From a virus, in IMG/VR virus record IMGVR_UViG_3300050821_005836, positions 1 through 28,032 of that record: a stretch of 28,032 nucleotides of DNA. One strand, 5' to 3'. Positions 1,596 to 23,414 of the stretch are shown here, piece after piece; within the stretch, counting starts at the first letter, position 1, and each line of letters begins with the position of its first letter. A program made the position numbers and the translations under genes. The notes below the pieces were generated by a model. The model was not told where the DNA came from. It saw nothing but the letters and a program-made list of their open reading frames with translations, and did no database searches.

Positions 1596-2756
1596 CTAAT
1601 TAAGATTTGTCTTGTATGGATAGAGATTTGCGTTATTTATGGGTTGACTATCCTCAAGATCAACAGAAATACTTTTTGTACCGATATAATCCTCCATAAG
1701 TCTTAAACGAGTTTCGTACATATCTTTGAAAATCTTGTACCGGTCGGGGTCTTTACCGATAGTCGTGTAATATGACATTAAAATTCCATAGATGATGGTA
1801 TCATGGAAATCTTCCTGCAAAAGGGGAAACTGTCCGATGGTGTAAGTTGAACCCGGCGTGATATTCGGAGCATTCACCACGGGCAATGCTAGTGTAAGAG
1901 ACGTATCGCTTTGGAATGATGAAATGGGATACCATATGCCGTCGCCGTTCGGCGGACTGACCCGCAGCATGAGATTGAAATATGATACGTCAACATTAAG
2001 AGGGAAACCTCCTGTTGTACTCCATGAAGTACCCGTTCCAGTTACCTGAAATCCCCCCTGTGTCATGGCGGTCACATTTCCTGTCGAATAGTCTTGAAAC
2101 GACAGGTCGGGTACACGGGCCTTGTAGTTAAACGTAAGCACATTGTTTGTCGTGGACGGTATCGGCCAAATGCCAAGCGTCCCCCCGTAAATGAAAAAGT
2201 AATTTGGAATGTCGGAAGTGTAGGGAATGGTGTTTATCATGTCCCATTCCTGACGGGACTGGACGGGGAAAGGCTGAAAGACGATTGAACCGACAGTAAC
2301 CGTGTCGTTAGTTATTTTTGAAATGTTTGCGGGAATTGGATAGTCCCTAACACCCAAAGTAGAAGCGGCAGTCGTTGCAGTATTGGCCAAACCTGCGTTC
2401 CATGTGATGACTGCGGAACCGTTTACAAACGAGCATATTCTCTGGTCTCCAGATGAAAAGGCAACTTGCTGTGTACATGTCATAAAAGCCCATGTCGAAG
2501 TCATGGTCGCTGTCGTAGCGCCTACAGCAAGAGTAGTGGTGAACGTTATGTTGCGTCCTCCGACTACGGGAATGGAAAAGGTACGTTCGTTATCGAAGTA
2601 TTTCTGTATGAGGAAGCGGTGATAGTTGTTTGCTTGTGCCTGACCAAATGTTACCGCCGTCTGCGAATTGTTGTTGCACAACGTCGTAAAAGCATTCCCA
2701 TATGTTGATGGTGAACTGCTTGCGGTCGTTCCTACAATGGCTGTGTTCGAGATCAA
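1596..2756 (-). CDS. Phage tail/head-tail connector-like structural protein
   Basis: 386 aa, starting at TTG 2756. No ATG occurs in the first 80 codons and an in-frame stop lies just upstream. The C-terminal half has a pattern I recall from many uncultured phages: YPIPANISKI..., PYTSDIPNYFFIYGG.LGIWPIPS, NVLTFNYKARVPDLS, then a helical end rich in Tyr, Arg and Asp (DFHDTIIYGILMSYYTTIGK). This resembles podovirus or siphovirus connector and adaptor proteins. Residues about 71-130 carry a beta-sandwich module (TLAVGATTATMTSTWA...VAFSSG) that recurs in the 273-aa and 1115-aa tail proteins. It is first in a short transcription unit with its own promoter and leader hairpin. The exact virion location is uncertain. 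Confidence 0.8.
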   Translation of the reverse strand: MISNTAIVGTTASSSPSTYGNAFTTLCNNNSQTAVTFGQAQANNYHRFLIQKYFDNERTFSIPVVGGRNITFTTTLAVGATTATMTSTWAFMTCTQQVAFSSGDQRICSFVNGSAVITWNAGLANTATTAASTLGVRDYPIPANISKITNDTVTVGSIVFQPFPVQSRQEWDMINTIPYTSDIPNYFFIYGGTLGIWPIPSTTNNVLTFNYKARVPDLSFQDYSTGNVTAMTQGGFQVTGTGTSWSTTGGFPLNVDVSYFNLMLRVSPPNGDGIWYPISSFQSDTSLTLALPVVNAPNITPGSTYTIGQFPLLQEDFHDTIIYGILMSYYTTIGKDPDRYKIFKDMYETRLRLMEDYIGTKSISVDLEDSQPINNANLYPYKTNLN

Positions 2757-2775
2757 AGTGGTGTGTTATTAAAAT

Positions 2776-2796
2776 AAAAAGCCACATGATTGTGGC
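2776..2796 (-). terminator. Leader hairpin with U-tract upstream of the 386-aa tail gene
   Basis: On the minus strand, stem GCCACA/TGTGGC (6 bp, loop ATCA) is followed directly by TTTTT. It lies between the predicted minus promoter (2829-2857) and the TTG start at 2756. It would therefore act as an attenuator or leader terminator, or as an upstream boundary. A related copy precedes the portal gene at 17182-17206. Confidence 0.6.
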
Positions 2797-2828
2797 CCGT
2801 AAGGGATTAGCTCTATTAAGTTGATATA

Positions 2829-2857
2829 ATACTACTACTTTTGTAAAGTCAATTCAA
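2829..2857 (-). promoter_or_regulatory. Predicted sigma70-type promoter for the distal tail genes
   Basis: Minus-strand TTGAAT (2857-2852), 17-nt spacer, TAGTAT (2834-2829), predicting transcription from about 2822. An overlapping alternative is TTGACT-N17-ATTATA. The same TAGTAT -10 is used by the scaffold promoter at 13412-13441. It lies back to back with the plus-strand promoter at 2862-2891. Confidence 0.5.
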
Positions 2858-2861
2858 GTGC

Positions 2862-2891
2862 TTGACAAGAGTATAGCACATTTGATAGTAT
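2862..2891 (+). promoter_or_regulatory. Strong predicted promoter of the 2898-3202 RNA
   Basis: Consensus TTGACA (2862-2867), 18-nt spacer, TAGTAT (2886-2891). The predicted start is about 2898, two bases before the first stem arm of the structured region. An extended -10-like TGATATAAT also occurs at 2822-2830 on this strand, without a good -35. Confidence 0.6.
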
Positions 2892-2897
2892 CATCAT

Positions 2898-3202
2898 AAC
2901 CCTTGTGCTTAAAGCTCGCATTCTCACAAGGGGTGCGAGCTTTGAGTTGGGGACTGATAGAGATGGCGGCGAATCTTTCGACCCTCTATTGGAAGCCAAT
3001 AATCGAAAGAACTTTATACCGATGCGACTGGCAGGAACCAGCTCACGAGAGGTTAAAGAGTCACTTCTACGTTACCTTAAACCCTGACGTAGAAAACACA
3101 CGAACAGCTCGTCGAGCTTCCTTCGATAGCGGGGTCGAATAGGATTAAAGGAGAGAAAACCTTATTTATTAATCCAAGGTCAAGGTCTGAATGCAGGCTT
3201 TT
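2898..3202 (+). ncRNA. Candidate structured non-coding RNA, about 305 nt
   Basis: No convincing protein gene occupies the 485-nt gap 2757-3241. Behind the promoter lies a chain of perfect inverted repeats. First come overlapping alternatives 2900-2907/2925-2932 (8 bp) and 2911-2920/2934-2943 (10 bp). Next is 2974-2981/3003-3010 (8 bp), enclosing 2987-2992/2996-3001 (6 bp, loop AAG). Then follow 3065-3072/3087-3094 (8 bp), 3106-3110/3114-3118 (5 bp), 3122-3126/3135-3139 (5 bp), 3142-3148/3169-3175 (7 bp, with inner AGG/CCT), and an end hairpin 3185-3198 followed by TTTT. I do not recognise a known RNA class; tmRNA, RNase P and tRNA hallmarks are absent. Strand choice rests on the promoter and the terminal hairpin. 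Confidence 0.6.
3185..3202 (+). terminator. Weak intrinsic terminator-like end of the candidate RNA
   Basis: GTCTG (3185-3189), loop AATG, CAGGC (3194-3198; one G-U pair), then TTTT (3199-3202). The stem is short, so termination may be partial and could allow read-through into the 95-aa gene. Confidence 0.35.
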
Positions 3203-3226
3203 ACCTTCCTATTCTCAAGGTTAAAG

Positions 3227-3235
3227 TGATATAAT
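3227..3235 (+). promoter_or_regulatory. Extended -10 promoter giving a predicted leaderless mRNA
   Basis: TGATATAAT is a perfect -10 with the extended TGn element. Its last base is 3235, so the expected +1 is 3242, the A of the start codon of the next gene. No good -35 is visible. The same TGATATA(A/C)T arrangement seven bases before an ATG recurs at 27010-27018. Confidence 0.5.
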
Positions 3236-3241
3236 ACACAC

Positions 3242-3529
3242 ATGAAAATCATACTACTTACTCTGACAATAGCCACATCCTCACATCAGCTTACGAATGC
3301 ACAGGTATATGCTCAAATAGAAGCAATAAATAACGCGGCCGCGGCGCAGGCTGTTCAAGAGGGATATTCTCAAACTTGGGTAACTCCTCCAGAGATGTTT
3401 GAAGCTACGACTACTGTTTCACAAGAAACATTTGAACAAGTAAACCCATTGCCGTGGTGTGGAAACGTAGCATATCAGTTTCAAAGTCATCCCTGCAATC
3501 CCAATTACTCTCATATTCTTGATGACTAA
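3242..3529 (+). CDS. Small predicted secreted protein, plus strand
   Basis: 95 aa, unknown function. The N-terminus MKIILLTLTIATSSHQLTNA looks like a signal peptide with possible cleavage after A20 (TNA-Q). The mature part is acidic and Gln/Pro-rich, with two cysteines (C73 and C84) that could pair outside the membrane. It is the only likely protein gene on the plus strand within the minus-strand structural arm. It converges on the 273-aa tail gene with a 4-bp overlap of ends. It has its own extended -10 promoter and follows the candidate RNA, so the two may form a separately expressed accessory unit. A role in superinfection exclusion, host-envelope modification or lysis is possible but not shown. 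Confidence 0.55.
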   Translation: MKIILLTLTIATSSHQLTNAQVYAQIEAINNAAAAQAVQEGYSQTWVTPPEMFEATTTVSQETFEQVNPLPWCGNVAYQFQSHPCNPNYSHILDD

Positions 3530-4347
3530 ATAAAAGTCAAATTTCCCAGTATATGCCAACCGTTCAAATTCGTTACTTGAAGCACCACTGAACCTTGATT
3601 GACAGTAAATAGTTGAGCGGTCGCTACGTTTCCATTGGTATTTGAATACACATTGACAATGAAGTTGGCGTCCAAATGGGCAGTCATGTTCGCCACATTT
3701 GTAGGGTCTAGATATGTATTTGCCGACGATTGCGCCAACAGTCCTATTTGATTTATGGACTGTGGGGTTATTGTCGATATGGGATATTCCAGTCCTCCTA
3801 CCACCACCGAAGAAGACGTGCTTCCCTGAAACTGATACGCCTGACTGATGATTGCATTTCCATTGATAAGGGCATACGCGGCCGCTGTCTGATATTCGGC
3901 GGTAGTTCCTGCCGAGAAATTCAACGGGGGCGTCCAAAATATCGTCAAAGAATTGTTGGTAAAACTAACCGCTCTTGTTTCGCCGCTTGAAAAAGTAACC
4001 AGTAAATTTTCCGTCGAACCTGCCCATACTGAAGTCAGTGTCCCGAAGTTTGCCCCTGCGGACAAAGAACTCGTCATCGTAAATTTAACTGTAGAAGTAT
4101 TTTGAAGTGCGTATCCCTCAAATAGTATTACTTGGGGGGATATGGACGGAAAATAAAAAGTGTAATCTTTATTTTCATCAAATCTCACCCGCGTGGCCAT
4201 TGCCCGAATCGGCGGAGTAACGCTTGTCGATGGAATGTTGATATTATCGCTTCCATCATGCTTATGCGGCGGAATCTTTGGAAGCTGAAACAGCTTCTTC
4301 TTGATTTCATCGTCCACTATTTTTCTAATTGCCTGTTCGTTAAGCAT
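3526..4347 (-). CDS. Phage tail-associated protein with N-terminal helix and HKHDG motif
   Basis: 273 aa. Residues 1-25 form a charged helix (MLNEQAIRKIVDDEIKKKLF). PPHKHDGSDNINIP follows at about 26-39, a His-x-His-Asp-Gly motif frequent at the head of phage tail or baseplate proteins. Residues about 88-150 carry the beta-sandwich module shared with two other tail proteins in this window (SLSAGANFGTLTSVWA...VTFSSGETR). The C-terminal 60 residues look like another beta domain. It lies directly downstream of the large Gly-rich protein, in the same direction. A minor tail or fibre-tip role is inferred from composition and position. Confidence 0.75.
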   Translation of the reverse strand: MLNEQAIRKIVDDEIKKKLFQLPKIPPHKHDGSDNINIPSTSVTPPIRAMATRVRFDENKDYTFYFPSISPQVILFEGYALQNTSTVKFTMTSSLSAGANFGTLTSVWAGSTENLLVTFSSGETRAVSFTNNSLTIFWTPPLNFSAGTTAEYQTAAAYALINGNAIISQAYQFQGSTSSSVVVGGLEYPISTITPQSINQIGLLAQSSANTYLDPTNVANMTAHLDANFIVNVYSNTNGNVATAQLFTVNQGSVVLQVTNLNGWHILGNLTFI

Positions 4348-11398: not shown

Positions 11399-11418
11399 AC
11401 CGTTAAGCTAATAATCAA
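11399..11418 (-). repeat. Recurrent intergenic motif ATTATYAGYTTAACGGT, capsid copy
   Basis: It matches 17 of 20 bases of 13321-13340. Shorter core copies (ATTATYAGYTTAA on the minus strand) lie at 10515-10529 and 15109-15122. All follow stop codons or precede starts within the structural arm. This copy is joined to a 12-bp perfect palindrome ACGGTTAACCGT (11392-11403). Confidence 0.4.
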
Positions 11419-12467
11419 CTTCCGGTGACGTTCGTGAGAGCGGCATTCCTCCAAGGCTGGACACAGACAAGCTGACCTCCGAGGATGACGAAGCCGTTAA
11501 TTGCGCCCATGTTGTAGGCCTTTATCCAGCCCGTCCAGGTGAATGCGCCCGGCGGAGAGTACATTGAATCTTCGTAGACGTTGCCCTGAATGTCCGCAGT
11601 CTTCTGGCTGATGGTCGTGCCCTCCCACCACTTCAAAGCGTAGAAGTTAAGGAACTCGGTGTTGAGCATGTATATCGTTCCCGTCGTGACTTTCTTGTCG
11701 CGGAAGAACGACATGCCATCCCACACAAGGTCCGCGTATCCTGAAACGGAGGCGGTCTCCTTGTTCTTCATTGCCGAAGCCTCAAAGCCCGTCATCATGT
11801 TCCTCTGGAACGGCGTGTAGAGCTGTTCCAGGTATGCCCATGTGGTGTAATCCGTAAGAAGCATGTCCGGTCGGATTGGCCCGTCGGAAATGTTGTTCCA
11901 CGATGTTCGGAGCGACAACAGGGTAATGTTGCCGCTGATGTTGTTGATGTAGGCGTTCAAACCCTGATAGGTTGCGCGTGAGAGTCCGCCGTAATTTGCA
12001 AGGTCTGAACCGTTGTCAACGATGCCTGCGAGACCCATCGGTGCTTTTCCGTCGGAGGCCGTGCCGTCTCCCTGAAGATAGTTGCCGATGTCGTCGGCGG
12101 CGTCCTGTCCCCGGGCCTTCATGGTTACCTCCATGAGGTCGAGGACTTTGAGCGCACCGTTGCCTTCCGCCCTGTTCTGGGAAATATCCGTGCCCGCAAT
12201 AGCGATATTCGTTGCGACGAATGCCGGATAAAAGAACATGTTCACAGTCGTCGGAATCTGATTGATTGGGAGAACGTCGAAACCGGAGAAAGGAACGGAT
12301 GCGATGCCTTTCTGATATTTGATTGGCTGAAGCATCTGCGAACCCTTCCATCGTTTTACTTTGGACAGAATCTTACCGAAAAAGTAGTTATCGCGTAAGA
12401 CCTGATCCTGCCACTCCGGTGCCAAGTACTGGTTGGTAGTGGTCTGTATAAGGTTATTTGGCCCCAT
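11415..12467 (-). CDS. Major capsid protein (HK97-fold type, inferred)
   Basis: 350 aa. It follows the scaffold gene by 17 bases in the standard scaffold-capsid order. The N-terminus (TTTNQYLAPEWQDQVLRDNYFFGKIL) and later TNIAIAGTDISQN...DLMEVTMKARGQDAADDIGNYLQGDG are typical of phage major capsid proteins with an N-arm, spine helix and P-domain; the C-terminus ends in GAINGFVILGGQLVCVQPW. No protease gene is visible between portal and capsid, so maturation cleavage may be absent. A recurrent A/T-rich motif lies just behind its stop codon (11399-11418). Assignment is from gene order and recalled pattern. Confidence 0.85.
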   Translation of the reverse strand: MGPNNLIQTTTNQYLAPEWQDQVLRDNYFFGKILSKVKRWKGSQMLQPIKYQKGIASVPFSGFDVLPINQIPTTVNMFFYPAFVATNIAIAGTDISQNRAEGNGALKVLDLMEVTMKARGQDAADDIGNYLQGDGTASDGKAPMGLAGIVDNGSDLANYGGLSRATYQGLNAYINNISGNITLLSLRTSWNNISDGPIRPDMLLTDYTTWAYLEQLYTPFQRNMMTGFEASAMKNKETASVSGYADLVWDGMSFFRDKKVTTGTIYMLNTEFLNFYALKWWEGTTISQKTADIQGNVYEDSMYSPPGAFTWTGWIKAYNMGAINGFVILGGQLVCVQPWRNAALTNVTGS

Positions 12468-15122: not shown

Positions 15123-17033
15123 TTAATGAGGCAATGGCACAGATGCCAAAGACGGATTGGCCGGTACGCCTCCCGTACTACCTGGCTGTGGAGGGGCCAT
15201 TGGCGGCGTTCCTCCACCTTGCGGCTGTGGCACTCCACCTGGCGCAGGTGCCATAGGCTGTGGCATCATACCGGCCGCCTGTGCTTCCTCTGGAAAGTTC
15301 AATTGGAAATAGGCCATTGGATTGAGCTTATAAAGCATAAGTTGTCCTGCGGTCTCTTTAGGATTTGGAAAATTGATACGGGTGAAAAATGTTTGGGGGT
15401 CTAACAAGCCTCCCTCCATGAGGGTCATTGCCTGATTCATGGTCGTAATTTCATCATGTGGCTTCATGCTGTCCGGTGCAACAGAAACAATGAGCTTGGC
15501 CGTAAGGTTTTGCGACGATAGCTGAATATACTCCGTCGCCTTTAACTGTCCAACAACCGAGGCGAAATGCTGTTCGTCGTAATAGACGTAGTAGAGTTGC
15601 ACCCACCAGTTGAAGACCGTACGGGCGACCATTTCAAGCTTGTCGCCAATGCCTCCGCCAATTCGGGAATTGTCGTACTGCTGATTGAGTATCATTCCAC
15701 GGGCGGTCTGCTCGGGATCTTGCTGTTGTGCGGTAATGCCCTGCACGCCGAAGATGGAGCGCAGATTGTCCTTGTTGTTCTGAAGCTCGGTGAAGAAAGA
15801 GTCTGGAACGGATGGGGGCGGAAAGTCCTTTACTGCTTCATTGATTGGCCTGCCTGCGGGTACAAGTACCGGATGTCCTTTTGTCCATGCCGTCGCCGCC
15901 TGTTTCGCAGTCTGTTGATTGAAGTTTTCACCTGAAAACACAGTAGAGTTATTCGCTCTTGAAAGATTGTAGTCAATCTGCTCGGTACGTCGGGATATAA
16001 GCCTCTGGTTAGGAATGTTCTGTTCGATAAGGCCCGTAACATCATGTGGCTGTGTTTGGAGATTGAAGACTGATAGAAATGTATAAGGCTTGATGGGATG
16101 TGCAAAATGATTTTGTCCTAAAACAGCTTCCACGGCAGGCTGTATCACCGTTCCTGTAGCTTCATCCACCTGTTCTTCCTGTCCCTCTTGGTCATAGTTG
16201 AAATGAGGATTTTTGTGCTTGTCAAGCACACAGTCTTTCAATGTATAGAACGTATATTCGTCAGTCCACCATTCGGTGTAGGTTACTTCCGTGCCGAGCT
16301 TGCCATCCACAAGTAAAATGATGACATCCTTTTTCTTTGGAAACATTTCAATGAGCTTCTCCGCTTTGACGGTAATCTTCTCGCCCATCCATGAAGTAAA
16401 GTCGCCATACACATCAACGTATCCCTCGGGGTCAAAGACGAAATTCTTTGCGTCCCTGATTTCAGTCTTGATTTCCTGCAGGTCATTGTTCCAACCATGC
16501 TTCAAAACACCTAAGAAGTCCAAAGCCCATTTGCGGGTCATCAACGACAGTTTAGGACGCAGAGCCAATTGGTCTGCATGGTACTGGAGCATCGTCTTAA
16601 CGTTGTCCGCTATCTCATTGCCTGCGGGACTATTATCAGACCAAACAACTGGCTCGGGGTTCTTGGACAGAGCGGCTGGCAGGAAGGTCTCCATTGCCTC
16701 AAAAATGAGATTAGAGGTGATTGCGGACTGGTTGTCGTCTCCTGCACCGGGCATGCCAATTTTCTGACTCCCAAGATAGAACGTCTTGTTGGCTTCCTGT
16801 CGAAGTTTAATCTTGTCCTCATAGCCTGCATACTTCAATTGCCATTTTCTAGCAAGCTGAAGAAGATCCTGCTCGCTCATGTCGAGTTCAAGCACATCTA
16901 GCTTCTCTCCCTCCACGCCCTCACCATCAAGAGATGTACCATTTCCGTTGACTTTATTCATGCGCGAAGAAACCAAATTCCTCACACCGGAAATGTTTAA
17001 GGCAAATGGGTCGCTCTTTGAGTCTACAGCCAT
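15123..17033 (-). CDS. Portal protein
   Basis: 636 aa. Portals form the dodecameric ring at the packaging vertex. Visible portal-type features are a helical wing (residues about 50-170), a long central alpha/beta part with DFLGVLKHGW and FVFDPEGYVDVYGDFTSWMGE, and NIPNQRLISRRTEQIDYNLSRANN in the stem/crown region. The Pro/Gly/Met-rich disordered C-terminus has about 70 residues. Length and position downstream of the large terminase agree. A 47-aa frame ends four bases before its ATG. A promoter and leader hairpin lie upstream at 17182-17268. There is no frameshift or truncation. Confidence 0.9.
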   Translation of the reverse strand: MAVDSKSDPFALNISGVRNLVSSRMNKVNGNGTSLDGEGVEGEKLDVLELDMSEQDLLQLARKWQLKYAGYEDKIKLRQEANKTFYLGSQKIGMPGAGDDNQSAITSNLIFEAMETFLPAALSKNPEPVVWSDNSPAGNEIADNVKTMLQYHADQLALRPKLSLMTRKWALDFLGVLKHGWNNDLQEIKTEIRDAKNFVFDPEGYVDVYGDFTSWMGEKITVKAEKLIEMFPKKKDVIILLVDGKLGTEVTYTEWWTDEYTFYTLKDCVLDKHKNPHFNYDQEGQEEQVDEATGTVIQPAVEAVLGQNHFAHPIKPYTFLSVFNLQTQPHDVTGLIEQNIPNQRLISRRTEQIDYNLSRANNSTVFSGENFNQQTAKQAATAWTKGHPVLVPAGRPINEAVKDFPPPSVPDSFFTELQNNKDNLRSIFGVQGITAQQQDPEQTARGMILNQQYDNSRIGGGIGDKLEMVARTVFNWWVQLYYVYYDEQHFASVVGQLKATEYIQLSSQNLTAKLIVSVAPDSMKPHDEITTMNQAMTLMEGGLLDPQTFFTRINFPNPKETAGQLMLYKLNPMAYFQLNFPEEAQAAGMMPQPMAPAPGGVPQPQGGGTPPMAPPQPGSTGGVPANPSLASVPLPH

Positions 17034-17268: not shown

Positions 17269-17475
17269 TTGTTTGTGTATCGTGTGTATAACTGCCGAAA
17301 GGTTTCCGTGTCTATCCTTGTGCAATTCCACCTTGCCACCTTTCATTCCATAAAAGTCTATCCTGTCAAGTTCACAGACAACGTTGTAGTACTTCATGAG
17401 CTTGACATATTGCTCTTGCTCCATGATGGTCATGTACACGGCGTTTTTGAGAGGTTCCGGCATGTTTAAAACCAT
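17260..17475 (-). CDS. Small hypothetical protein between terminase and portal
   Basis: 71 aa from ATG 17475, or 67 aa from ATG 17463. The second start lies just after the large terminase stop and is perhaps more likely. The sequence is a mixed alpha/beta protein: helical EPLKNAVYMTIMEQEQYVKLMKYY..., then strands LDRIDFYGMKGGKVELHKDR. It contains no motif I recognise. It is tightly linked to the terminase gene and ends inside the portal promoter. Confidence 0.65.
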   Translation of the reverse strand: MVLNMPEPLKNAVYMTIMEQEQYVKLMKYYNVVCELDRIDFYGMKGGKVELHKDRHGNLSAVIHTIHKQLI

Positions 17476-19097
17476 TTATTTTGGTAATCGTTGATGCGTT
17501 CCCCGCCGACGGTTCCTCCCGGTATTCCGTCAAGTAAATCACCTCCGACTATCTGGGCCATTTGCTCTTGGAACTTGTCGAGGCCAATTCTGCAATACAG
17601 CCCGGCGTGACAGAAATGATCAGGCCCATTCCGTTCCCACTTGAAACCTTTCTCCCGGTTGACAAGACCGCTGTCATCATACTCCCATTCGCGATAGATG
17701 TTAAGCCAATGGGTTATATACTCATGCCAGTCGGCTTCAGTGCCGTTGTATGTCCATCGTTTCTCGGTCATTTCGTCAATGAACTGTTGAATGGCTTTAT
17801 TTCTGTTCACGGATACTTCGCCATATTTGTCTCCAATACCCCATTCTGCAATTTCGCCTGTATTTTTGAGGGTGCGATAGAAGCACATAAACACCCTGCC
17901 GGGATATTTCTGCCGCAATAGCCTTATGGGCGTAAGATCTCCATTGGCGTCAGACACGATGATTGATGACGGCCAGCGTGCCAACAATCCCTCAAGTTCT
18001 TTGGCTGGATCTCTGCCAGTACTTGGGTCAGAAAGCTTGCCATAATAGAAATATCCTTTCTTGTTTGCTACGACGAAATGGTAAGGGACTCCAGTATCAA
18101 CTCCGATAATTGGTCTGTCTTCTTGTGGATTAACTCTCGAAGAGATGCAATTTGTGATTGTAGAAGCAGAGACTTTATTTCCGCTTCCAATATAGGGTTG
18201 TCCGGCCACAAAGTTAGCGAAGTATTCAGCGGTCTTATTTTGTTTGAGGATTTTGATGTCTTTGGCACTTTTTTGGGGGTTAATCCAAAGCGGTATCCAA
18301 TATCCCGACCATTCTCCTTTAGACGTTGCAATCCACTCGCCCATTCTCCTGTCTTCATCGGTGATTTCCTTTTTGCACTTCGGACACTCAAAGATTTCTT
18401 TTTCATAGTTGATTGTTGATTCGTCTAATAGTATCACTTCTCCGCAACATGCGGAAGACGGTAATTTATCTATATTGGCGAAAGGATTATTAATTTGACG
18501 GCCTATATGTTTCACATGCCATTTCTTCTGGTCTGATATTCTCCAATACTTGTCTACACCAAAGTCCGGGGATGTAGGGTTTGAGAATACCCATTTGTAT
18601 CCAAACTTGGAATGTTGCAAACGGCTATCGTATGTTTCCAATATGTTCTGCGGCGCTTTGTCATATTCATCAGCCACAAGCATGTCCAATGAGAGCATGA
18701 TGGCGGAACGTTCCGTCTGTGCGCCAAGATAGTGGATGAATGATTCTCCCACTTGTTTCTGCGTAACACTGTCTTTGTCTTTCATCCATTCCAACAATAC
18801 GGTATTCTGTGTGGCCATCGGATTCACCTTTGATCCGACAAACTTCTGCACCATTTCAACCGTCGGAAGAATGTAGCCCACATTTATCTTCCTATTCTTC
18901 GCCATCCACAAGGTCTTCAAGATGGCCATTTGAGAGAAGCCTATCTGTCCCGCCTTGATGGAGCAAAGATACTTTGAGTTGTCACGGTAAATATCATACA
19001 GATACCGATGTGTGTGAAACTCCAATGGTTCGCCAGTCTCGGTTCTTATTCCGTTATTGACGATGAAGGCGATGATTGAGATTTGTTCGAGGAGCAT
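17466..19097 (-). CDS. terL: Terminase large subunit (GpA-like packaging ATPase/nuclease)
   Basis: 543 aa. The motor translocates DNA into the prohead and cuts concatemers. The Walker A-like segment KAGQIGFSQ is at 48-56 (the deviant GQxGxS form of the lambda gpA type). Walker B is LDMLVADE at 137-144. A zinc-ribbon-like pair C217-C218 and C238/C241 follows. The C-terminal nuclease has IIGVDTG (D334), IVSDANGD (D383) and a late DHFCHA near 503-508. It lies between the small terminase and the portal, as expected. The first 52 bp overlap a small upstream gene, so a later start cannot be excluded. Confidence 0.9.
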   Translation of the reverse strand: MLLEQISIIAFIVNNGIRTETGEPLEFHTHRYLYDIYRDNSKYLCSIKAGQIGFSQMAILKTLWMAKNRKINVGYILPTVEMVQKFVGSKVNPMATQNTVLLEWMKDKDSVTQKQVGESFIHYLGAQTERSAIMLSLDMLVADEYDKAPQNILETYDSRLQHSKFGYKWVFSNPTSPDFGVDKYWRISDQKKWHVKHIGRQINNPFANIDKLPSSACCGEVILLDESTINYEKEIFECPKCKKEITDEDRRMGEWIATSKGEWSGYWIPLWINPQKSAKDIKILKQNKTAEYFANFVAGQPYIGSGNKVSASTITNCISSRVNPQEDRPIIGVDTGVPYHFVVANKKGYFYYGKLSDPSTGRDPAKELEGLLARWPSSIIVSDANGDLTPIRLLRQKYPGRVFMCFYRTLKNTGEIAEWGIGDKYGEVSVNRNKAIQQFIDEMTEKRWTYNGTEADWHEYITHWLNIYREWEYDDSGLVNREKGFKWERNGPDHFCHAGLYCRIGLDKFQEQMAQIVGGDLLDGIPGGTVGGERINDYQNKWF

Positions 19098-19714: not shown

Positions 19715-21169
19715 TTATCTTCGTTGTGATTGCATTTGCCGGGCCAATTCCTTGTAATACTCAGGTACTACCAACGCTCCTTTTGTGGTTAATATTATAC
19801 CAGAAAGTGATACGGCTGTCGTCAAGGCGGATTTTATTACCACGGCGGGATCAATCACATTTTCATCAAGTACTGCGCCAATAATTTCATGGGGTATTTG
19901 AAGAACACATTGTAATATTGCCGATAATCCGTCTTTCATTCCTATCATCGCCAAACATTGTCCTCCCCCAGGCACTATTCCGTCTTTCAACGCCAGACGG
20001 GAAGCGTTGGAAGCGTCAATGGTTTTCTTAATCTTCCATGAGAGTTCGCTTTCACTGTTAGCCCCAACTTTGAGTATAGCTACTTTGGTGTTGAGCCAGC
20101 CAAGCCTAGGCCTGTATTCTTCTTTCTTTTCTTCTGTCATAGTTTTCAACAGTTTATCCACATGTTCAGACATGTCTTTGGTACCGTTGAGACGCGATTC
20201 GTCCTTTTCCGCTTTCCATGTCTTTACATGGCCGAGCCATTCTTCTTTGAACCCTTCGAACGTTGCGCCTTTGGATGAGTCAACGGCAATTGCACCCGAC
20301 ATGATTTGTAGGTCTTCAAACAACCAATCCTTGAACATGACAGGGCTTTTAATAACGAGGGTTTTGATGACATCTTCTCCGTTTAAAGCGGCGATATTGG
20401 TCTTTGCAAGCGAGGCTAGGACGTTCTGCTCTATCTCATCACAGTAAAGCACGACTTCTCTCGTCTTTAATTTCTTGTATATGGCCTCTATTTGCCTCTT
20501 GGACGCGATTTTATCCTTAACGATGAGGATTGTAGCGTCTTCGACGATTGAAACGCTTTGGTAAGGGACTATGTCAAGTATCTTTTTTGCCCCATGAAGC
20601 CTGCAACCCTCCACCACTTCGTAGAATGTCTGGGGAACGTTTGAGCTTTCTACTTCGATAATGCCTTCTCTGCCAATTTTGGGATAGATTTCTCCGATGA
20701 GATTGCCGATTTCGGCGCTTTCGGAAGCTATCTTTGCAATCTTGCCTATTTCTTCAATCGGTATTTCCTTTTTCTGCTTGTCTATTTCAGCGATGATTTT
20801 AGGAAGCTCGGCGTCAAGTTCCCTTTTGAGAGTAAGACCGTCCATTTTTGTTTTAATTCCCTCATTGAGAATGGAAGCGGTTAAAATACACGTTGTCTTT
20901 CGGCCATCGCCGCATTCCCGTTCCTGCTTGTCGCACGCTTCCTTGAGCATATTTGCTCCCATCTGTTCTATGGGATCTTCAAGATAAATCATATCGGTAA
21001 TGCGTTTTCCATCATTTGTCACGCAATGCCCAGGATACAATTCGACTTCCACGACCACATTGCTGCCCTTTGGGCCATAGGTAGGCTTAATGACCTCTGC
21101 CACTTTATTTATTCCACTAACAAGTCTGTCTCGTGATGTTGAGTATTCCTTTAAATTATCTTTTGTCAT
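19715..21169 (-). CDS. groEL-like: Phage-encoded GroEL-like chaperonin (group I type)
   Basis: 484 aa, against about 540 in bacterial GroEL. Equatorial parts are clear: PTYGPKGSNVVVE (29-41), TNDG (51-54), LEDPIEQMGANMLKEACDK, CGDG (86-89), and C-terminally DASNASRLALKDGIVPGGG (385-403; D385 matches the catalytic GroEL D398) and LTTAVSLSGIILTTKG. The apical domain (about 180-340) is divergent, and the Gly/Met tail is missing. In the ATP loop, bacterial GDGTTT reads GDGRKT here, so two threonines near the phosphates are replaced by Arg-Lys. Its likely partner is the GroES-like protein 340 bases upstream. It probably folds capsid or tail proteins. Confidence 0.9.
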   Translation of the reverse strand: MTKDNLKEYSTSRDRLVSGINKVAEVIKPTYGPKGSNVVVEVELYPGHCVTNDGKRITDMIYLEDPIEQMGANMLKEACDKQERECGDGRKTTCILTASILNEGIKTKMDGLTLKRELDAELPKIIAEIDKQKKEIPIEEIGKIAKIASESAEIGNLIGEIYPKIGREGIIEVESSNVPQTFYEVVEGCRLHGAKKILDIVPYQSVSIVEDATILIVKDKIASKRQIEAIYKKLKTREVVLYCDEIEQNVLASLAKTNIAALNGEDVIKTLVIKSPVMFKDWLFEDLQIMSGAIAVDSSKGATFEGFKEEWLGHVKTWKAEKDESRLNGTKDMSEHVDKLLKTMTEEKKEEYRPRLGWLNTKVAILKVGANSESELSWKIKKTIDASNASRLALKDGIVPGGGQCLAMIGMKDGLSAILQCVLQIPHEIIGAVLDENVIDPAVVIKSALTTAVSLSGIILTTKGALVVPEYYKELARQMQSQRR

Positions 21170-22583: not shown

Positions 22584-22627
22584 TACATGCTCAAAATCGT
22601 TAATCATTACAATTCAATAATTTGTAG

Positions 22628-22688
22628 GCAACAGTCCGTAGAAGATTTTGGTTTTAACGAGCCAGAGCAGTCTTCTGCGGACTATTGC
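22628..22688 (+). promoter_or_regulatory. Long inverted repeat in the leader of the initiator gene
   Basis: 18-nt arms 22628-22645 and 22671-22688 pair at 16 of 18 positions (GCAA/TTGC, AGTCCG/CGGACT, AGAAGA/TCTTCT, with two mismatched or wobble steps). The loop is 25 nt. The element lies between the early promoter and the initiator ATG (22713). It could be an RNA leader switch, an operator or part of the replication origin. It also falls inside a possible 35-aa frame (22587-22694). Confidence 0.5.
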
Positions 22689-22712
22689 TTGTAAAAATAT
22701 GAAAAACAAACG

Positions 22713-23414
22713 ATGAAGTTGGTAAAAGAAAATATACCATTTACAATGGTTGCAAATGAAGTTTTAAAAGATGCGCGGCTATCTTTTAAAGCCAAAGGCA
22801 TGTATGCATATCTTTTCTCCAAGCCAGACGAATGGGATTTTTCAAGTAACAGGATGATACTTGAAACAACTGATCGAAGGGACGCAATTATGGGAATGCT
22901 GCAAGAATTAGAAGAAAATGGATATCTAGTTCGCCAAAGATTATCCAATGGGAAAATGGAATATACCCTTAAACACAGCCTAAGTCGGGAAATCCAACTT
23001 AGGGTAGAAAAGCCTAAGTCGGGAAATCCCACAGTGGGAAAATCCCTACGTGGGAAAATCCAACCTATAAGTAATATAGAAGAGAAAATAATAAGTAAAG
23101 AAGAAAATAATACAGATAGCGGCGTGCCGCCGCAGGAAATTACCGATTTCATTTATTCTTTCAAAGAGGTAAACCCCTCATACGAAAATATCTTTAAAAA
23201 CAAGACTGAGAGGAAATCAGCCGTATATCTCATAAAAAAATATGGATTGGAAAAAGTGCTTAAAATTACCGAACAATTACCTAAAATCATAATTCAGCCT
23301 TACGCACCACGAATTACTACTCCCTACGAGTTAGAACGAAATCTCGGTAAATTATTGGCTTTTATAGGCCAAAGCAAAATTATCAGCACTAAAAAAGAAA
23401 CTAAAATCATATGA
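22713..23414 (+). CDS. Helix-turn-helix replication initiator-like protein
   Basis: 233 aa. The N-terminal 85 residues (FTMVANEVLKDARLSFKAKGMYAYLFSKPDEWDFSS, then a second helix pair and LEENGYLVRQRL) are a winged helix-turn-helix of the HTH_36 / phage replication-initiator type. A linker at about 89-120 has short Gly/Lys/Ser repeats (SGNP, VGKS, RGKI). The C-terminal part (IYSFKEVNPSYENIFKNKTERKSAVYLIKKYG) is a helical domain seen in such initiators. It would bind the origin and load replication proteins. It is the first firm gene of the right arm, preceded by a promoter and a long inverted repeat. The DNA repeats coding the linker may be the origin. Confidence 0.75.
   Translation: MKLVKENIPFTMVANEVLKDARLSFKAKGMYAYLFSKPDEWDFSSNRMILETTDRRDAIMGMLQELEENGYLVRQRLSNGKMEYTLKHSLSREIQLRVEKPKSGNPTVGKSLRGKIQPISNIEEKIISKEENNTDSGVPPQEITDFIYSFKEVNPSYENIFKNKTERKSAVYLIKKYGLEKVLKITEQLPKIIIQPYAPRITTPYELERNLGKLLAFIGQSKIISTKKETKII
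22978..23061 (+). repeat. Iteron-like repeats inside the initiator gene
   Basis: An exact 18-nt direct repeat (GCCTAAGTCGGGAAATCC) occurs at 22978-22995 and 23012-23029. Two shorter copies of GTGGGAAAATCC follow at 23034-23045 and 23050-23061. CCTAAGT (22979-22985) also pairs with ACTTAGG (22997-23003). Origin repeats within an initiator gene are known from lambdoid phages. Alternatively the repeats only reflect the repeated peptide linker. Confidence 0.5.

Follow-up and report, generated by a model that had tools for sequence, protein, structure and literature searches.

The window, the 28,032 nt of the 28-kb virus record IMGVR_UViG_3300050821_005836, carries a tailed-phage virion operon on its minus strand. 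We could recognize the genes for TerL (17466-19097), the portal (15123-17033), the major head protein (11415-12467) and an SU10-type adaptor (1596-2756), and the operon also encodes a glycine-rich protein of 1115 aa and a GroEL-like chaperonin. The chaperonin gene (19715-21169) adjoins TerL, and its product is less than 30% identical to any chaperonin in the phage records listed. Inside the operon lies a free-standing homing-type endonuclease gene of the NUMOD3-HNH type (919-1572). Relatives of TerL with 38-42% identity were found in genome contigs, namely in MAGs of Jorgensenbacteria, a Parcubacteria group bacterium and Nealsonbacteria, as well as in one further bacterium and a Nanoarchaeota MAG. 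Since three of these MAGs are Patescibacteria (CPR), the host is likely a bacterium of this group; the assignment is not proven, because binning can misplace phage contigs. A full-text literature search combining ncRNAs with Patescibacteria phages returned nothing by title, and little appears to be known about such RNAs.

The replication region is located elsewhere in the window. An almost perfect hairpin of some 30 bp (GCAACAGTCCGTAGAAGA...TCTTCTGCGGACTATTGC, 22621-22695) lies just before the replication-initiation gene at 22713; it reaches a z of -8.3 as RNA, is strong on both strands and is a candidate origin or regulatory hairpin. The lambda O gene contains iterons. Three 22-nt direct repeats (AGCCTAAGTCGGGAAATCC, 22977-23064) within the replication-initiator gene resemble them and are a likely origin of replication.

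Upstream of the adaptor gene, the virion operon is interrupted by a gap of 485 nt (2757-3241) and a small plus-strand gene (3242-3529) encoding 95 aa with a signal-peptide-like N terminus. We compared sixteen adaptor-gene loci. In the distant set L061-L075, which amounts to 14 phages with the similar L061 and L062 counted once, the adaptor gene starts at most 60 nt from the end of its upstream neighbour, and some of these pairs overlap. Only the sister phage L002 has a reverse-oriented gene at this junction, whose 97-aa product is 41% identical to that of the window; apart from it, the small gene has no homologue in our comparisons. The structured RNA described below is absent from the same junction in L002, where a gap of 134 nt folds like shuffled sequence. 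Because the junction is closed in the 14 relatives and the RNA segment alone is missing in L002, we regard the site as an accessory (moron) locus. It has a promoter of its own and is an extra unit absent at the same junction in related phages; an own terminator was not found on the plus strand (2700-3600), and 'moron' is used here to name the location. The small gene appears to have entered the virion operon, and the RNA would then have been gained in the lineage of the window or lost from that of L002, two orders that cannot be told apart because only two phages are involved. The adjoining 273-aa protein is 92% identical between the two phages, compared with the 41% of the small-gene product, which points to fast evolution of the latter, such as a moron exclusion protein might show.

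The preliminary description of the locus saw no credible gene in the gap, and the codon usage agrees with this. Scored against the phage's own usage, genes average +0.18 bits/codon (sd 0.12) and off-frames -0.22, while the two ORFs of at least 60 aa inside the gap, 2903-3142 and 2905-3087, reach -0.21, a value typical of off-frames, and -0.08. It could be argued that frame 2903-3142, which is open for 79 codons and offers an ATG at 2963 behind GGGGA as a possible ribosome site, encodes a small protein of 59-79 aa and that the structure is incidental. We consider this highly improbable. The codon usage of the frame is non-coding, and the version starting at ATG-2963 scores -0.19 bits/codon, lower than every 177-nt gene chunk of the phage. 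A family search gave no match, and no relative was found in viral or genome contigs. Moreover, such open frames are common in non-coding frames here, the window having 116 ORFs with a length of at least 60 aa.

On the plus strand, segment 2895-3225 (331 nt) has a computed minimum free energy (MFE) of -115.6 kcal/mol, compared with -84.5 (sd 5.3) for dinucleotide shuffles. None of 1000 shuffles folded as well (z -5.9), which removes the objection, raised in the preliminary description itself, that the MFE might be no lower than that of shuffled sequence. A folding tool returned z values of -6.34 for the plus and -2.07 for the minus strand. When the contig was scanned on both strands in 330-nt windows, the candidate RNA was the most extreme of the 168 tiles, with a score of -9.45 (based on 20 shuffles only) and a runner-up at -4.78. 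It is not outstanding in a 200-nt tiling, in which the tiles are too short to span the long P2 domain and split it. The GC content of the region is average (45%). The gap had also been credited with at least seven perfect stems and with exact inverted repeats at a higher density than in surrounding intergenic DNA. Positions 2890-3210 indeed contain seven perfect Watson-Crick inverted repeats of at least 7 bp, five of them of at least 8 bp; shuffles have 2.4 and 0.6 (0 of 100 reach either count), and eight 320-nt stretches from other gaps of the window have 2-6 and 0-1, respectively.

These repeats might function as DNA, for example as a packaging site or protein-binding palindromes, or the segment might be a recombination or insertion remnant. 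The DNA fold of the segment likewise surpasses that of shuffled sequence (z -3.8), the sister phage lacks the segment, and a pair of 17-nt near-repeats flanks it (2816-2832 and 3221-3237); these repeats may be insertion debris or two similar promoters. However, the large strand asymmetry that arises from G-U pairs makes a DNA element very unlikely. With G-U pairs disallowed, the strands differ little in energy (-85.0 on plus, -82.5 on minus); allowing them gains 31 kcal/mol on the plus strand and 12 on the minus strand. The wobble pairs thus suit a plus-strand transcript and point to RNA, not to DNA palindromes. This asymmetry is the best available stand-in for covariation and is worth one sequence of evidence; a single well-folded sequence can mislead, and the candidate is no more than that as long as no second copy turns up.

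Folding and the contig scan place the candidate structured RNA at about 2898-3214 on the plus strand, which corresponds to roughly 310 nt with an approximate 3' end. Its predicted fold begins with P1 (2907-2947), an 18-bp hairpin (2907-2924/2930-2947) with a pair probability of 0.96. The P2 domain (2977-3139) is closed by a 17-bp helix (2977-2993/3122-3139, one bulge) and encloses a three-way junction, from which arm A (2995-3032) and arm B (3034-3121, with its tip at 3065-3074/3085-3094) extend; the pair probability is at least 0.9 in most helices of this domain. Two hairpins follow, P3 (3142-3175, paired at 3142-3148/3169-3175) and P4 (3176-3207, paired at 3176-3180/3203-3207 and 3182-3189/3194-3201). 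Several mutually exclusive pairings exist in the region, including 2911-2923 with 3189-3201. Another one involves the presumed 5' end, CCCTTGTG (2900-2907), which is perfectly complementary to CACAAGGG (2925-2932) at the apex of P1; this pairing excludes the top of P1. An H-type pseudoknot between 2900-2907 and the P1 loop was rejected on geometry. As there is no linker across the 13-bp stem, the 2900-2907/2925-2932 helix and P1 must compete. The former may be either an early hairpin that is displaced by P1 during transcription or a pairing between molecules.

The sigma-70-like promoter reported earlier, TTGACA-N18-TAGTAT, is present on the plus strand at exactly 2862-2891 and has a TG before its -10 element; we infer a transcription start near 2898. 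About 1-2 such matches are expected per contig by chance, and the promoter is supportive, not proof. A hairpin plus TTTT near 3202 had been proposed as the terminator, but this assignment does not withstand inspection: the TTTT (3200-3203) is contained in P4, the last hairpin, where it mostly forms the 3' strand, and ACCTTCC follows it. A terminator scan of 2700-3600 found no intrinsic terminator on the plus strand, and a discrete transcript is therefore putative. Given the folding z, the strand asymmetry, the non-coding codon usage and the promoter, a structured RNA on the plus strand, opposite to the minus-strand structural operon, is nevertheless well supported.

On the minus strand, the operon has its own intrinsic terminator hairpin (2779-2798), preceded by CCCTTACGGGC. 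This motif is kept in relatives and thus is part of the surroundings, not of the RNA. The arrangement of CCCTTACGGGC, hairpin and T-run is found on the minus strand at 2779-2810 of the window and at about 14084-14160 of L005, and it appears to be a shared module kept at different places across the phage group. The adjoining terminator and the opposite orientation to the operon would fit a function in which plus-strand transcription, or a stable RNA, restrains the late operon on the minus strand or protects the moron gene. Such an antisense or insulator role seems quite unlikely, though, as simple terminators suffice for this purpose, the RNA region itself is antisense to nothing but intergenic DNA, and the relatives manage without the RNA.

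The RNA could also be a cis-regulatory 5' leader. Transcription from 2862-2891 would then continue through the structure as far as the gene at 3242, whose expression would be tuned by refolding (2900-2907 with 2925-2932 against P1, and 2911-2923 with 3189-3201). In favour of this, RNA and gene share a strand, 35 nt separate the end of P4 from the ATG with no terminator between them, and the region offers several mutually exclusive pairings. Of the two 17-nt near-repeats, the upstream one, TTAAGTTGATATAATAC (2816-2832), contains an extended -10 element (TGATATAAT, 2822-2830) and is a near-copy of 3221-3237, where the extended -10 (TGATATAAT, 3227-3235) precedes the ATG of the small gene by six bases. 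No Shine-Dalgarno sequence that could serve a long leader is visible before this gene. Because of these two features, the mRNA of the small gene is probably leaderless and would not need the RNA as a leader. In addition, the sister gene in L002 exists without such a leader. A leader function therefore has some chance of being correct, albeit a low one.

We could not assign the RNA to a known family. As had been suggested from the sequence, it does not match tmRNA, RNase P RNA, tRNA or a known riboswitch: a search with the covariance models of all Rfam families, including those for 6S RNA, introns and HEARO, gave no match, either at the gathering score or with E allowed to rise to 10, and ARAGORN and covariance models found neither tRNA nor tmRNA. 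In blastn searches against phage and plasmid records, there were at most chance matches of 20-28 nt. The exact P1 pattern had 0 matches in IMG/VR. Degenerate scans with the translated frame, two of IMG/VR and one of genome contigs, revealed no relative; by our estimate they detect only homologues of roughly 85-90% identity or more. Neither did 36 related phage records contain a homologue of the RNA. A single-sequence covariance model of the P2 domain (R1) found nothing in the relatives or in 384 genomes from the class of the Jorgensenbacteria MAG. When two possibly overlapping samples of Patescibacteria genomes (380 and 384) were searched at the DNA level, scattered segments had six matches of 19-36 nt. 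Their E-values predict a similar number, and the RNA fold is absent in all five of these that were tested. The large gaps of L005-type relatives were rejected as RNA sites, their only DNA match being the terminator motif; the gap that we read is filled by small reading frames. 'No homologue' thus refers to these collections, and outside the directly searched records a diverged RNA (below about 80-85% identity) would be missed. Within this scope, the proposal of a new structured RNA stands, with no Rfam family or DNA relative found and with support from fold, strand, codon usage and promoter; the part that fell is the terminator.

A homo-oligomeric cage is one mark of GOLLD and ROOL RNAs. Like the candidate, they are phage-borne, highly folded, non-coding and of unknown function (PMC12286853). 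However, their models give no match to it even at E up to 10, they often occur near tRNA islands while no tRNA lies near the candidate, and many GOLLD members exceed 800 nt (PMC12286853), compared with about 310 nt and no known homologues here. The comparison drawn earlier is therefore only a loose one: the candidate has no tRNA array, matches these RNAs neither in sequence nor in structure and is far shorter. AsxR and AgvB of lambdoid prophages are, like the candidate, ncRNAs in a moron site, beside a moron gene and independent of it (PMC4104026). They are, however, Hfq-binding anti-sRNAs of 51-60 nt with conserved 3' regions (PMC4104026), whereas our RNA has about 310 nt, folds into a closed structure of several helices and has no relative that we could detect. 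TIGR arrays (TIGR-Tas) are an RNA element of phages and CPR bacteria (PMC12045711), and an HNH gene (919-1572) is near the RNA. We rejected a TIGR array, as there are no tandem repeat units and the HNH protein is a NUMOD3-HNH protein; among the proteins of the window that we compared with Pfam, none showed a Nop domain as in Tas. Type III toxin-antitoxin repeats and introns were likewise considered and rejected. By the tests made, the candidate is an orphan that belongs to neither GOLLD/ROOL nor the lambdoid moron-site sRNAs.

We lean, by a little more than even chances, towards a trans-acting structured RNA carried at a moron site. A non-coding RNA of about 310 nt would be transcribed on the plus strand from its own sigma-70-like promoter (2862-2891), adjoining the small gene at a site flanked by two virion genes, in a phage whose hosts are probably Patescibacteria. 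It would fold into the 5' 18-bp hairpin, the closed three-way-junction domain and the two 3' hairpins. Like other accessory RNAs of phages, it would serve as a stable trans-acting scaffold and bind a protein or an RNA of the host or the phage. Computation establishes the structure, its strand, the lack of coding character and the patchy occurrence, whereas transcription, action in trans and a binding partner are inferences. Action in trans is the likeliest, since the neighbouring gene apparently has its own leaderless promoter and persists in the sister without the RNA. It is conceivable, but as a whole unlikely, that the RNA represents, as its founding member, a new class of ornate CPR-phage RNAs, that it binds either to itself, by way of its 5' end and the loop of P1, or to a host factor, and that phages exchange it as a moron that has no protein partner. 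That the phage keeps in its compact virion operon a 310-nt RNA missing from its sister suggests that RNA alone carries out an accessory function, for which defence, exclusion and host control are candidates.
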